Positions 18,912 to 53,305 of a stretch of DNA of 64,000 nucleotides are shown here, piece after piece. Numbering within the stretch: the stretch's first letter is position 1; every line of letters starts with the position of its first letter. This stretch comes from Armatimonadota bacterium (GTDB taxonomy: Bacteria > Armatimonadota > Hebobacteria > CAIYQO01), in contig JAKPKV010000114.1 in NCBI GenBank assembly GCA_029553475.1, positions 1-64,000 on the forward strand. Reading direction: 5' to 3'. The position numbers and the translations under genes were made by a program. The notes under the pieces were generated by a model. The model was not told where the DNA came from and made no database searches. It saw only the letters and a program-made list of their open reading frames with translations.

Positions 18912-19115
18912 GATGGTGATGAGGGGTGTTCTGACTACGGCCGGGGCGGCGCCACTCCACGCTGTTGCGTGGCGCACTACCAACGCGCGGCGCTGTTTGG
19001 TGGGGCCGTGTATCACCCCGCGCTACGTGCTCTTTTGCGAAATGCGGGGTGATACCGCTATTGCCCCGAAGCGGGGAGCTGCCGGGCGATCTTCTCTTGT
19101 CATGGTTCAGGCGGC

Positions 19116-19144
19116 AGTATAGCACACTTTTGTTCTTTTGTCAA
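19116..19144 (-). promoter_or_regulatory. Strong sigma70-type promoter inside a dispersed repeat
   Basis: Reverse strand TTGACA-N17-TATACT; spacer AAAGAACAAAAGTGTGC shared with 11693-11721. Confidence 0.65.
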
Positions 19145-19229
19145 GCAGGTGTTTGCTTTGGGCTTGATACGACGGCGGCGACGAAATAGGGGAGCATCAT
19201 CCACTGCCTCCCTGCCGTCCTGGCGGAGA

Positions 19230-19520
19230 CGCCCACCGGCGGGGCCGGCGCGGAAGGGACAGACTCCGCAGGGCATGGCTGGACGGTGTCCGACACGGGG
19301 CAGCAGCGATGCGCCTGAGAAACTGTCTTGTAAGTGCTCGGTGTCGTCTCGCGGAGGATGGGGCGTGGCTGGCAAGGCGGAGTTCCGAGAGTGTATCGGG
19401 GGGATACATGCCAGGAACTCCAACGCCGCCAGCCACGTCACAGACCCGCGAGACGGCGGCGAGCACTTGCAAGACAGTTTCTGAGTGCGCGTTCGGCCAT
19501 GCGCAGTCAGTCCCGGCGGG
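19230..19520 (-). repeat. Family H repeat interrupted by MITE copy a
   Basis: ccggcgcggaagggacagactccgca...gcagcgatgcgcctga[MITE]tgagtgcgcgttcggccatgcgcagtcagtccc; compare intact copy 39234-39347. Confidence 0.85.
19319..19481. mobile_element. Palindromic MITE-like element, copy a (163 bp, TSD TGA)
   Basis: Ends GAAACTGTCTTG.../...CAAGACAGTTTC; flanked by TGA at 19316-19318 and 19482-19484; self-complementary over most of its length; interrupts a family H repeat. Confidence 0.88.
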
Positions 19521-19531
19521 GCCGAAGGAGG

Positions 19532-20212
19532 TTACATCAGCACTCGCACGTCCGCCGCGTCGAAGAGGGCGCCGTTCAGGTCGGCGCGGGACATGTCGGC
19601 GCCGGTGCAGTCGGCGTGGGTGAGGTTGGCGTGGGCGAAGGAGGCGTTTTCCACGCGCGCCTCGCGCAGGTCCGCGCCGTGCAGGGTCGCCTCGCGGAAG
19701 ACGGCGTTGCGCAGCAGGCTGTAGCGCAGGTCGGCGCTGGCCAGATGCGCGCCGTCCAGGTGCGCGTCGGTGAGGTCGGCGTACAGCAGCAGTGCGCCGG
19801 TGAGGTCGGCGCGGATGAGGTCGGCGCGCGCCAGCCGCGCCTTGCGCAGGTCGGTCTTCCAGCACATGGCGCCGATGAGCATGGCGCCGCCGAAATTGCC
19901 CTGCAGCGCCAGCGCGCCGGTGAGCACGGCGTTGACGAGCAGCGCGCCGACGAAATTCGCCTCCGTGAGGTTGGCGCCGTCCAGGTGCGCGTCGCAGAGG
20001 ATGGCGCCGTGGAAGGTGGCCGCGCTCAGCGCCGCCCCGCGCAGATCCGCGCCCGCCAGGTTCACGCCGGTGAAATTCGCCTCCGCCAGCGCCATGCCGC
20101 GCAGCGACGCCCCGCTGAGATCGGGCCGGCGCGGCGCGCGGTGCGCGCGGCGCCAGGCATTCCACGCCGGGACCCCCTCGTGCAGCAGGCCAAGCAGCTC
20201 CGGGTTCGCCAT
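19532..20212 (-). CDS. Pentapeptide repeat protein
   Basis: Tandem A(D/N)LxxA repeats (ANFTGVNLAGADLRGAALSAATFHGAILCDAHLDGANLTEANF...). Confidence 0.92.
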   Translation of the reverse strand: MANPELLGLLHEGVPAWNAWRRAHRAPRRPDLSGASLRGMALAEANFTGVNLAGADLRGAALSAATFHGAILCDAHLDGANLTEANFVGALLVNAVLTGALALQGNFGGAMLIGAMCWKTDLRKARLARADLIRADLTGALLLYADLTDAHLDGAHLASADLRYSLLRNAVFREATLHGADLREARVENASFAHANLTHADCTGADMSRADLNGALFDAADVRVLM

Positions 20213-29684: not shown

Positions 29685-29752
29685 ACTGGGGACTGTCCCC
29701 CTGCACGCCGTGACCAGATGATCCACAGGCCGTTCACCGGGACTGTCCCCAT
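29685..29752 (+). repeat. Family C repeat, copy 3
   Basis: cactggggactgtccccctgcacgccgtgaccagatgatccacaggccgttcaccgggactgtcccc. Confidence 0.8.
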
Positions 29753-29816
29753 ATGCCTAGCTTTAGCGGAGGGGGGAGTGCCGTGCGGAGTTGCTGACGG
29801 TTGCAGACATGCACAA

Positions 29817-29882
29817 TGGGGACAGTCCCGGTGGAGCCCCTGTGGATCATCTGGTTACGGCGTTCAGGGGGACAGTCCCCAT
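29817..29882 (-). repeat. Family C repeat, copy 4 (inverted)
   Basis: tggggacagtcccggtggagcccctgtggatcatctggttacggcgttcagggggacagtcccca. Confidence 0.8.
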
Positions 29883-35072: not shown

Positions 35073-35140
35073 ACTGGGGACTGTCCCCCTGAACGCCGTG
35101 ACCCGTTGATCCACAGGGGCTGCACCGGGACTGTCCCCAT
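35073..35140 (+). repeat. Family C repeat, copy 5
   Basis: actggggactgtccccctgaacgccgtgacccgttgatccacaggggctgcaccgggactgtcccc. Confidence 0.85.
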
Positions 35141-35214
35141 ATGCCCTAGCTTTAGCGGAGGGGGAAGTGTAGCGGATCGTCACGATGTACCTTGTGCCTT
35201 CAAACACACCACCG

Positions 35215-35331
35215 GTAGTCCGCGCCCTCCGTGGCGCGTGTTGACGCATTGCTACCCCGTGCTCGATGCCGGTGGTGTCGGACACGGGTGCGCATGTCGG
35301 TCACACGCGCCGCGGAGGGCGCGGACTACAG
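35215..35331. repeat. Nested inverted repeat inside the family C pair
   Basis: GTAGTCCGCGCCCTCCGTGGCGCGTGT ... ACACGCGCCGCGGAGGGCGCGGACTAC. Confidence 0.75.
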
Positions 35332-35423
35332 AGCAAGGTGCGATGTGACATACCGCTACATTAGCGGAGGGGGGAGCTTTAGCGAAGGGGGGAGTGCCGT
35401 GCGGAGTTGCTGACGATCGCACA

Positions 35424-35491
35424 CTGGGGACAGTCCCGGTGCAGCCCCTGTGGATCACCTGACCACGGCGTTCAGGGGGACAGTCCCCAGT
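35424..35491 (-). repeat. Family C repeat, copy 6 (inverted)
   Basis: ctggggacagtcccggtgcagcccctgtggatcacctgaccacggcgttcagggggacagtccccag. Confidence 0.85.
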
Positions 35492-38158: not shown

Positions 38159-39163
38159 ATGACCCGTGTATCGCTCGCTGTCTGGCTGCTGGCCTCGTTG
38201 TGCCTGTCGCTCGCGTCGCCCGCCGCGCCCACGAAATGGATGGTGACCGGCTACGTGCAGGGCCGCGTCACGGACACGCTGGATGAAACGCCGCAGACCG
38301 CGTCAACCTTCCAGATTCGCCGCGCCTACATGTACGTCCGCGGCGCGGTGGACGAGCACATCACCGGCACGCTGCTGCTCGCCATGCAGCCCACCGTGCG
38401 CGCCGAGCACGCGTATGCCGAATACGCGGCGAAGCCGTACATGGTGCGTCTCGGCCTGGTGCCGCTGCCCCTCGGCTACGAGATCCCGCTCACCTCCAGC
38501 CGCCTCGTCACGCTGGAGCGCTCGCAGATCGTCACCGACCTGGTGGTGAAAAACGGCGGGCAGGATATCTACTTCTTCGACCGCGGCATCTTCCTCTACT
38601 ATCTGCCCGCCAAGGGGCTGAACGTCTCCGCCGCGCTCATCAACGGCCAGCCGGTGGAAAACAGCAGCGGCGCCGAGGGCCTCTTCACCAATGACCGCAA
38701 CGACGGCAAGCCGATCGTCGCCCGCGTGGGCTACAGCATTCCCGGCGGCGAAGTCGGCGTGTCCTACTACGGCGGCAATCGCCGGGTGCGCACCGCCGCG
38801 TCGGACGGCAGCCAGCGGCTGACGCTCTACGCCTTCGACCTGGCGACCAACCGCGGCCCCTTCACCATCATCGCCGAGGCGATGGCCGGCACCGACGGCG
38901 GCATCGAGAAAGAGGGCGGCTACCTCACCGTGGCCTACCGCAAGGAGGGCTCCGCGTCGCAGCCGTACCTGCGCTTCGACATCGAGGACCAGGACACCGC
39001 CGCGCCCAATACCAATTACAAGCGCCTGACCGCCGGCTACGCGTACTACCTGAACCCCGCCGCCAAGGTGTCGCTGGAATACGAGTCCATTGACGCCGGC
39101 GCGGCCTTCGCCCCCGCGCAGCCGAACAGCCGCCTGACCGGGCAGTATCAGATCATCTTCTAA
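38159..39163 (+). CDS. Phosphate-selective porin O/P-like outer membrane protein
   Basis: Signal peptide; GYVQGRVTD...FQIRRAYMYVRGAVDEHITGTLLLAMQP; LGLVPLPLGYEIPLTSSRLVTLERSQI. Confidence 0.75.
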   Translation: MTRVSLAVWLLASLCLSLASPAAPTKWMVTGYVQGRVTDTLDETPQTASTFQIRRAYMYVRGAVDEHITGTLLLAMQPTVRAEHAYAEYAAKPYMVRLGLVPLPLGYEIPLTSSRLVTLERSQIVTDLVVKNGGQDIYFFDRGIFLYYLPAKGLNVSAALINGQPVENSSGAEGLFTNDRNDGKPIVARVGYSIPGGEVGVSYYGGNRRVRTAASDGSQRLTLYAFDLATNRGPFTIIAEAMAGTDGGIEKEGGYLTVAYRKEGSASQPYLRFDIEDQDTAAPNTNYKRLTAGYAYYLNPAAKVSLEYESIDAGAAFAPAQPNSRLTGQYQIIF

Positions 39164-39199
39164 TCCCCTCGGGATACGGCTGAACATCACGTCCACAAC

Positions 39200-39224
39200 G
39201 GAGCCTCGCGTCATGCGAGGCTCC
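39200..39224 (+). terminator. Hairpin terminator after porin 1
   Basis: GGAGCCTCGCgtcatGCGAGGCTCC. Confidence 0.5.
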
Positions 39225-39233
39225 GTTCGCTTC

Positions 39234-39347
39234 CACCGGGACTGACTGCGCATGGCCGAAATCGCACTCAGTGGCATCGCTGCAACCCCGTGTCGGGCAC
39301 CGGCCCGCCATGCCATGCGGAGTCTGTCCCTTCCGCGCCGGTACCAC
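39234..39347 (+). repeat. Family H repeat, uninterrupted
   Basis: accgggactgactgcgcatggccgaaatcgcactcagtggcatcgctgcaaccccgtgtcgggcaccg...catgcggagtctgtcccttccgcgccgg. Confidence 0.8.
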
Positions 39348-39485
39348 TCTTCCGAAAATCCAGCAAACGGCGTTGCGATTTAAGGGCGCCTTGAGCATCC
39401 GTTAGCCTGCGCTTGAGAATTCAGGCGCGGTCTTTCGATATGATTAAGGCGCGACCAAATTTCCGTAGAGAGGACCCGTAGCACC

Positions 39486-40490
39486 ATGAGAGTCAGCCTG
39501 TTTGCGGCACTCGCCGCGCTGGGCGCGGCCGCCGCGCTCCCCGCGCCGGCGGCGCCGTCCGTCACGGTGGGCGGCTACGTCCAGGTGCGCTTCACCGACG
39601 CGCTGGGCGCGAAGGACGACGGCGCTATTGACGGCGTCGCCAAAGGCGTGAGCGGTTTCAGCGAATCGTCCAGCTTCGGCCTGCGCCGCGCGCGGCTGTC
39701 AGTGAAGGCGCCGCTCGACGAACAGGGCCTGACCGCGCTGGAGATTGACGCGTCCAAATCCGGCGTGGAGACGAAGAAAGCGTTCCTCGCCTACCAATGG
39801 CGGGAGCTGTACGTCGTCGCCGGCCGCGACACCATCCCCTTCGGCTACGAGCTGCAGCGCTCCTCGTCGGCGCTCACCACGCTGGAGCGCTCGATGATCT
39901 CCCTGACGCTGCCGGAATACGCCACCGGCCTGAAGGTGACCCCGCGCGCGGTGCCTCTCCCGCTCACAACGACGGTGGGCGTCTTCAACGGCAACGACCC
40001 CGCAAAATCCATCGCCGTCTCCGGCGCCAGCGGCGCGGTGAACAGCTTTGACGACACGAACAACAATAAAATCCTGGGCGTCACCGCCGAGCTGCCGGTG
40101 GGCGGCCACAACATCGGCGCCTCGTACCTGACGGACCTGGGCGGCCACACCGCGGCGGGGGGGTACGCCAACGCCACCTTCGGGAAGCTCGGCCTGACCG
40201 CCGAATACATCGCCAGCGAATACGACAAGTACTTGGCGAACCTGGGTGCGCTGCAGAACCGTGGCTACTACCTGCTGGCCACCTACGCGGTGAAGCCGAG
40301 CACCACCGTCTACGCCCGCTATGACACGCTGAACAACGCCGCCATCGAGGAGAAGGCGCGCGCGACGGTGGGCGCCGCCGTGCGGTTGACCGAGCACACC
40401 GAGCTGACGGTGGAATACCAGTTGATAGACGACCCGGCGCAACCGGCGCTGAACGGCGCTGTCGGCGTGCAGCTCCAGGGGAAATTCTAG
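39486..40490 (+). CDS. Phosphate-selective porin O/P-like outer membrane protein, second paralog
   Basis: Signal peptide; GGYVQVRFTD...FGLRRARLSVKAPLDEQGLTALEIDASKS; AGRDTIPFGYELQRSSSALTTLERSM. Confidence 0.8.
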   Translation: MRVSLFAALAALGAAAALPAPAAPSVTVGGYVQVRFTDALGAKDDGAIDGVAKGVSGFSESSSFGLRRARLSVKAPLDEQGLTALEIDASKSGVETKKAFLAYQWRELYVVAGRDTIPFGYELQRSSSALTTLERSMISLTLPEYATGLKVTPRAVPLPLTTTVGVFNGNDPAKSIAVSGASGAVNSFDDTNNNKILGVTAELPVGGHNIGASYLTDLGGHTAAGGYANATFGKLGLTAEYIASEYDKYLANLGALQNRGYYLLATYAVKPSTTVYARYDTLNNAAIEEKARATVGAAVRLTEHTELTVEYQLIDDPAQPALNGAVGVQLQGKF

Positions 40491-41517: not shown

Positions 41518-41681
41518 GAGCCTGTTGGTGAGTAGTTGTGTGTCAGATCGCGCCGAGATCGGCGTGTCAGGCGCGACACGATTTGTCGGTCGTATCCCGA
41601 CCCGATACCGCGAACAATCGTGACACAGCCTGGCGCGGCGAGATCGAGCGAGATGGCGAACAACTACTCACCAACAGGCTC
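41518..41681. mobile_element. Palindromic MITE-like element, copy b (164 bp)
   Basis: Ends GAGCCTGTTGGTGAGTAGTTGT / ACAACTACTCACCAACAGGCTC; 5' flank TAA, 3' flank TGC (TSD not intact). Confidence 0.8.
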
Positions 41682-47530: not shown

Positions 47531-47537
47531 GTGCTAA

Positions 47538-47699
47538 GAGACTGTTTTCAAAGGGATCGGCGTTGGCTCGCGATGAATGGGGCGTGGCTGGCAAGGCGGA
47601 TGGCCGAGAGTGTACTGGGGAGTACATGCCAGGCCAGCCAACGCGGCCAGGCGCGGCCCAGACCCGTGAGACGGCGGCGAGCACTTTGAAAACAGGCTC
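47538..47699. mobile_element. Palindromic MITE-like element, copy c (162 bp, TSD TAA)
   Basis: Ends GAGACTGTTTTCAAAG / CTTTGAAAACAGGCTC; TAA at 47535-47537 and 47700-47702. Confidence 0.87.
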
Positions 47700-47941
47700 T
47701 AAGACGGCGCGAAAGGAGAAAGGAGATGACGCACATGGCGCAGATCACGACCGGGTTGCCGGGTCTTGGTCTTCGTCACTTCTGTGGCGAACCGGCATAA
47801 CCCTTCCAGACCCCGGTCCGGATTCGCACCAGGAAACCGGACGTTGCCACCGTTGCGCTGTCCCCGTTCCGCATTCTGCGGCACGGGACGAGTCCGCGAA
47901 GAGCCGCGCACTCTTCGGATATCGAATACAGGAGAAAGACG

Positions 47942-52129: not shown

Positions 52130-53122
52130 ATGACGATGACGACACATGACGAACAGGGTACGCGCACGTCGCTGCCGACGTTCCGGCAGACGATCTATCC
52201 CGATATCACGGCGGCCATCGGGCGCAGTCCATTGGTGCGGCTGCAGCGGCTGGCCGCGGATACCGGCGTGCGCCTGGCCGCCAAGCTGGAGGCCTTCAAT
52301 CCGGCGAGCAGCGTGAAATGCCGCATCGGCGCGGCCATGCTGGCCGCCGCGGAGCGCGACGGCAAACTGCGCCCCGGCATGACGGTCATCGAGCCGACGA
52401 GCGGCAACACCGGCATCGGCCTGGCGTTCGCCTGCGCGGCGAAAGGCTACCGGCTCATCCTGACGATGCCGGAAACGATGACCATCGAACGGCGCAAGCT
52501 GGTGGCCATGCTGGGGGCGGAGCTGGTGCTGACGCCGGGCACGCAGGGGATGGCGGGCGCGGTGGCCAAGGCGCGTGAGCTGCAGCGCCAGTTGCCGAGC
52601 AGCTTCCTGCCGATGCAGTTCGATAACCCGGCCAATCCGCAGGTCCACCGGGACACGACCGCGGAAGAGATCTGGGCGGATACGCAGGGCGCGGTGGATC
52701 TCTTCGTCGCCGGCGTGGGCACCGGCGGCACGATCACCGGGGTTGCCGAAGTCATCAAGCGCCGCAAGCCCGCCTTTCAGGCCATCGCCGTGGAGCCGGA
52801 TGCCTCTCCGGTGCTCTCCGGCGGGCAGCCCGGACCGCACCGCATCCAGGGGATTGGCGCCGGTTTCATCCCCAAGGTGCTGAATCGCGGCGTCATTGAC
52901 CGCGTCATCCGCGTGACGAACGACGACGCCTTCGCCGCCGCCCGCCGGGCCGCCCGCGAGGAAGGCATCCTCTGCGGCATCTCCAGCGGCGCGGCGCTGT
53001 GGGCCGCCCTGCAGCTCGCGCGGGAGCCGGCGCAGCGCGGGAAACTCATCGTCGTCATGTTCCCCGACTCCGGCGAGCGCTACCTGACGACGCAGTTGTC
53101 GGAGATGGCCACCTCATCGTAA
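52130..53122 (+). CDS. cysK: Cysteine synthase
   Basis: [91 protein letters not shown]. Stop TAA lies in the TSD of MITE copy d. Confidence 0.92.
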
Positions 53123-53284
53123 GAAACGGTCTTGAACGTGCTCGCCACCATCTCGCTGGTCTGGCTCGCGTCTGGCAGCGTTGGAGTTCCTACCATGTAT
53201 CACCCGACACACTCCCGGAACTCCGCCTAGCCAGCCACGACCCATCCGCAGCGATCTGGCACCGATCACGTTCAAGACCGTTTC
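53123..53284. mobile_element. Palindromic MITE-like element, copy d (162 bp, TSD TAA, opposite orientation)
   Basis: Ends GAAACGGTCTTGAACGTG / CACGTTCAAGACCGTTTC; TAA at 53120-53122 and 53285-53287. Confidence 0.87.
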
Positions 53285-53305
53285 TAACACGGGTGACGCG
53301 GTTCG

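Follow-up and report, generated by a model that had tools for sequence, protein, structure and literature searches.

The question raised by this locus is whether the long palindrome near 19.3 kb of the window, that is, the whole 64-kb stretch of Armatimonadota DNA that was analysed, was formed in place or arrived by transposition. The first-pass annotation had described it as a transposed element rather than a local hairpin, inserted exactly at a TGA that it duplicates, with an uninterrupted repeat of family H at 39 kb as its natural empty site. The features concerned are the following.

19319-19481, + strand: MITE copy, a near-perfect palindrome of 163 bp with the ends GAAACTGTCTTG...CAAGACAGTTTC
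19316-19318, no strand: left target-site duplication TGA, from direct sequence reading and flank comparison
19482-19484, no strand: right target-site duplication TGA, from direct sequence reading and flank comparison
19247-19318, + strand: left part of the interrupted family-H repeat, from the match to the H query
19485-19519, + strand: right part of the interrupted family-H repeat, from the match to the H query and the aligned H copies
39233-39339, - strand: uninterrupted family-H copy, the natural empty site, from H matches and alignment

When positions 19000-19800 were inspected, the filled site read ...GCAGCGATGCGCC TGA (19319-19481) TGA GTGCGCGTTCGGCC..., and the gap in the repeat coincided with the boundaries of the palindrome, as had been claimed. 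The strings quoted for the two H copies were also recovered, from 19000-19800 and from the complement of 39000-39600; the empty copy exists, with the extent 39233-39339 in place of the annotated 39234-39347. Positions 1-73 and 69-107 of the H query matched on either side of the palindrome, their overlap being the duplicated bases. Removal of 19319-19484 except for one TGA restored GATGCGCCTGAGTGCG, a stretch that is identical in the H copies L072 and L073, and in total 24 uninterrupted H copies were aligned to the site, which bears out the natural empty site. The direct repeat at this copy can formally be read as 4 bp (CTGA), the last base of the element being C; the duplication is taken as 3 bp because other MITE copies have a base other than C at -1. 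Family H itself is a dispersed repeat of ~107 bp with about 46 matches in the genome (in the window at 19247-19519 and 39233-39339), inverted ends (GGGACAGACTCCGCATGG / CCATGCGCAGTCAGTCCC) and a variable interior.

A covariance model of the palindrome, built from 34 copies, located about 70 distinct places in its own genome (G000), where a DNA search with the palindrome gave 55 matches. The single congeneric genome (G001) gave 24 matches and the second genome of the same family (G002) gave 38, some copies in these match counts being counted on both strands. In 38 additional genomes from the class and the phylum the covariance model found no copy, and Rfam gave zero matches in the window. A GTDB-wide scan with an internal motif matched 79 stretches. 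Only one of them obtained a good score from the family model, namely L129 from Armatimonadota, whose coordinates are those of G002:C77; the remaining stretches were rejected as members, with scores near background. Most copies are 162-165 bp long across two genera; some reach 182-190 bp, through an insertion or an extended apical loop, and others are shorter. Features of a MITE that were observed are short length, lack of coding capacity, terminal inverted repeats (GAAACTGT...ACAGTTTC) and many dispersed copies. Two more copies are present in the window:

47538-47699, + strand: second MITE copy, target-site duplication TAA at 47535-47537 and 47700-47702
53123-53284, - strand: third MITE copy, target-site duplication TAA at 53120-53122 and 53285-53287

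Copy numbers in the fragmented genomes may be underestimates. In the congeneric genome, contig C389 (L221) has its first bases in the right arm of a MITE copy, which looks as though assembly had stopped at the palindrome. The window also holds, at 41518-41681, a palindrome of 164 bp whose ends are GAGCCTGTTGGTGAGTAG; it resembles the MITE in size and design, has no matching flanking TNA and is perhaps a sister family. A separate family of palindromes, in which GGGGACTGTCCCC boxes form inverted pairs nested in one another, was observed at 363-784, 29689-29879 and 35077-35487.

Identical trinucleotides flank 43 of 61 MITE copies, against 15.4 expected and a maximum of 29 in 10,000 shuffles; nearly all are TNA, and the length is constantly 3 bp. 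The 18 copies that lack an identical duplication are put down to decay or to model-set boundaries where copies have diverged. C at -1 occurred together with G at +1 in 15 of 34 own-genome copies, compared with 3.3% of TNA sites, and the preferred target is therefore CTNAG. The further pairs of empty and filled sites that the annotation had proposed to look for were found both within and between genomes. On contig C102 one MITE copy lies inside another, and removal of the insert and one TGA left a host copy of exactly 162 bp, 92% identical to copy L011. In the congeneric genome, the orthologue of the fliG site has a single TTA and no element, and that of the Pyr_redox site is without a 61-bp derivative, one base of the expected TTA also being missing. 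At the fabF site the element is present in both genomes, the congeneric contig starting within the palindrome.

In the IS1031 group a TNA target is preferred and a 3-bp repeat is produced, and ISLrh, a member of this group, has the ends GAACCTGTCTAGTATCT (PMC12016507). Duplication of TNA and ends of the GAAACTGT type are hallmarks of IS1031-like members of the IS5 family. The MITE has a TNA target with a 3-bp duplication, and its ends are of the GA(A/G)NCTGT type when compared with ISLrh and with full-length plasmid IS5 elements. A DUF4096 (PF13340) remnant was found in its own genome (G000:C157:58710-58892). The frame starts just inside the end GAAACTGTTTTCAAAGTG, which follows TCA, and breaks off after 44 codons; only this one end is recognisable, and its terminal repeat matches that of the MITE. 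The remnant matches NCBIfam NF033580 (IS5 family transposase) below the full-length cut-off of the model, as is expected for a fragment. Its closest plasmid relatives are IS5-family transposases, and ends were sought in six full-length plasmid IS5 elements with related transposases. Identical TNA duplications were found in four of the six (TAA, TGA, TCA and TGA), one has TGA/TAA and one is unclear:

Thermus: ends GAGGCTGTCGTAAAAG, TAA/TAA
Sphingobium: ends GAGGCTGTTTGGAAAA, TGA/TGA
Martelella: ends GAGCCGGATTTAAAAG, TCA/TCA
Methylorubrum: ends GAATCCGTTGGG, TGA/TGA
Rhizobium: TGA/TAA
Chroococcidiopsis: no clear TNA

From these data we infer that the transposase is supplied by the IS1031-like group, an assignment to IS1031 rather than IS427 that is suggested by ends and target, the relic having only 44 residues. 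The enzyme would cut at the GAAAC...GTTTC ends and make staggered 3-bp cuts at CTNAG. No intact transposase was found with PF13340 and PF13359 in the three genomes or with PF01609 in G000; repeated genes may be absent from fragmented assemblies. The PF01609 and PF13359 searches gave no useful partner. Two DUF4096 matches in G002 were discarded as partner IS, being regulator fusions and not IS elements. These two loci of one genome, L202 and L204 (G002:C179 and C99), encode LacI-type regulators fused to the N-terminal domain of an IS5 transposase (DUF4096), and are apparently domesticated.

The element at 19319-19481 is thus very probably an IS1031-like MITE of the IS5 family, with a TNA target and GA(A/G)ACTGT ends, palindromic throughout and non-autonomous, which a DDE transposase of the DUF4096 type moves in trans. 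This reading is preferred because of the dispersed copies, the 3-bp TNA duplications in CTNAG context, the empty and filled sites, the nested copy, the matching end of the IS5-family relic and the co-varying arms described below, and the claim of a transposed element, for which the orthologous empty sites also speak, was upheld. A terminator or REP-like palindrome formed in place, with the TGA repeated by chance, would account for the intergenic location and for the very stable fold (-130 kcal/mol against a mean of -61.8 in dinucleotide shuffles; z = -16.8). Such an origin is practically negligible in view of the some 70 dispersed copies and of a rate of TNA repeats that was unmatched in any shuffle, and it is refuted by the uninterrupted H copies and the orthologous empty sites. 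An HUH/RAYT (REP) element, moving as single-stranded hairpin DNA, would likewise be palindromic, dispersed and near gene ends. HUH transposition is not known to duplicate target bases, whereas the copies have true 3-bp duplications of their TNA target and inverted IS5-type ends, which set them outside the REP/RAYT elements. ORFs next to REP copies can also receive a TAG stop codon from them (PMC3733652), and even so this origin is very improbable.

Each of the four TNA trinucleotides reads as a stop codon on one of the two strands. Of 34 own-genome copies, 16 have a duplicated TNA that terminates an open frame of 100 codons or more, a strong enrichment compared with 12.7% of all TNA sites (p = 1e-6). 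Against non-coding TNA sites in the window (22%) the enrichment was modest (odds ratio 3.2, p = 0.002), this comparison being based on rough gene calls, some of them probably on the wrong strand. Some of the 16 long frames (L003, L043 and L024) scored poorly as coding sequence and are perhaps not real genes. Genes supported by Pfam that end at MITE duplications encode FliG, a PLP enzyme, a beta-ketoacyl synthase, Pyr_redox_2, Pterin_4a, an M16 peptidase, an epimerase and NAGPA. The PLP enzyme precedes the third copy of the window, the left TAA of which is its stop codon:

52130-53122, + strand: PLP-dependent enzyme gene (PF00291), its stop codon being the target-site duplication of the copy at 53123

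With TNA duplicated, the frame regains its stop codon before the MITE begins. There was no preference of orientation relative to the upstream gene, and the stop-codon copies face both ways. Such copies would be tolerated in that TNA is always a stop on one strand and is restored by duplication. This siting needs no more than the survival of insertions that do no harm; a true targeting preference for stop codons is possible, and it is not claimed because the enrichment over non-coding TNA sites is only modest. That insertion of a TNA-duplicating element into a stop codon can leave the encoded protein as it was is a general, testable point, with a possible effect on where IS1031-type elements survive that can be checked across many genomes.

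In addition to being a MITE, the hairpin could be a selected structured RNA or single-stranded DNA that either serves the element in moving or is retained by the host at the ends of genes. Changes on both sides were found in 30 of the 46 consensus pairs (compensated), and the covariation score of the arms was 0.380, compared with 0.159 when shuffled and at most 0.106 when partners were slid. The internal mismatches are conserved and stay unpaired, the stem columns contain 44 G:T against 16 A:C mismatches, and the length of 162-165 bp is held in most copies of both genera. Co-varying arms could result from selection on the fold or from local arm-to-arm correction, which in replication yields covariation without selection; stop-codon copies in both orientations also speak against a selected hairpin, and the counts come from related, non-independent copies. 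The retained mismatches and the excess of G:T lean towards selection at the RNA level, in a weak test on related copies, and on balance this addition to the MITE reading is considered tentative. The apical module TCCCGATAGCATCGGGA occurs at five places. Four of these could be located within the alignment of copies, where they lie on arms belonging to different subfamilies, and parts seem to have been exchanged between MITE copies. A still more doubtful proposal is that the hairpin as a whole, including the conserved internal loops and the exchanged apical modules, is a selected structure and that the family has specialised on stop codons as safe sites; if true, the safe-site strategy would be inherent in the target rule, the TNA duplication making insertion into a stop codon harmless.

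Traces of loss were also detected. Remnants of 11 bp, TGA-GAAACTGTTTC-TGA, were found at four sites of the own genome (G000 C2:89397, C2:121737, C26:39033 and C159:134857) and none with a control pattern; these are probably products of near-precise excision. One site carries TCA-GAAACTGTCTTGACAGTTTC-TCA, and derivatives of 30, 45, 61 and 82 bp are present, so that remnants range from 11 to 82 bp. Near-precise excision of palindromic transposons proceeds by deletion between short direct repeats at their ends. The 11-bp and 20-bp products are exactly those expected if a deletion joined the direct repeats (GTTTC or GACAGT) present in both ends, and the remnants of 11-82 bp may have arisen when the hairpin brought short repeats together and slippage between them deleted the intervening sequence.

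These copies constitute a MITE family that is new and belongs to an already known kind, IS5/IS1031; the conserved hairpin and the siting on stop codons are its less ordinary features. A search of the literature, comprising open-licence papers only, found no report of a MITE in Armatimonadota, for which the present data give a clean record of insertion and decay, within and between genomes. Other bacterial MITEs (Nezha, NEMIS, RUP and QMITE2 of Coxiella) are likewise short, gene-less, with inverted repeats, many copies and a strong hairpin, and often adjoin genes. Their sequences are different, and they have other targets and other partner IS families; in the present family, in addition, the entire 162-165 bp are palindromic, the arms co-vary and many copies lie on the stop codon itself. 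ISLrh of the IS1031 group shares the 3-bp TNA duplication (TGA in ISLrh) and has similar ends, GAACCTGTCTAG compared with GAAACTGTCTTG here (PMC12016507), but is about 860 bp long and carries a transposase, whereas the MITE is gene-less and its arms span its whole length. GTAG-tagged REPs are also dispersed palindromes near gene ends, whose termini may supply a stop codon, but they are of 20-40 bp and linked to RAYT transposases (PMC3733652), whereas in MITE copies sited on a stop codon that codon is itself the target site and is duplicated.
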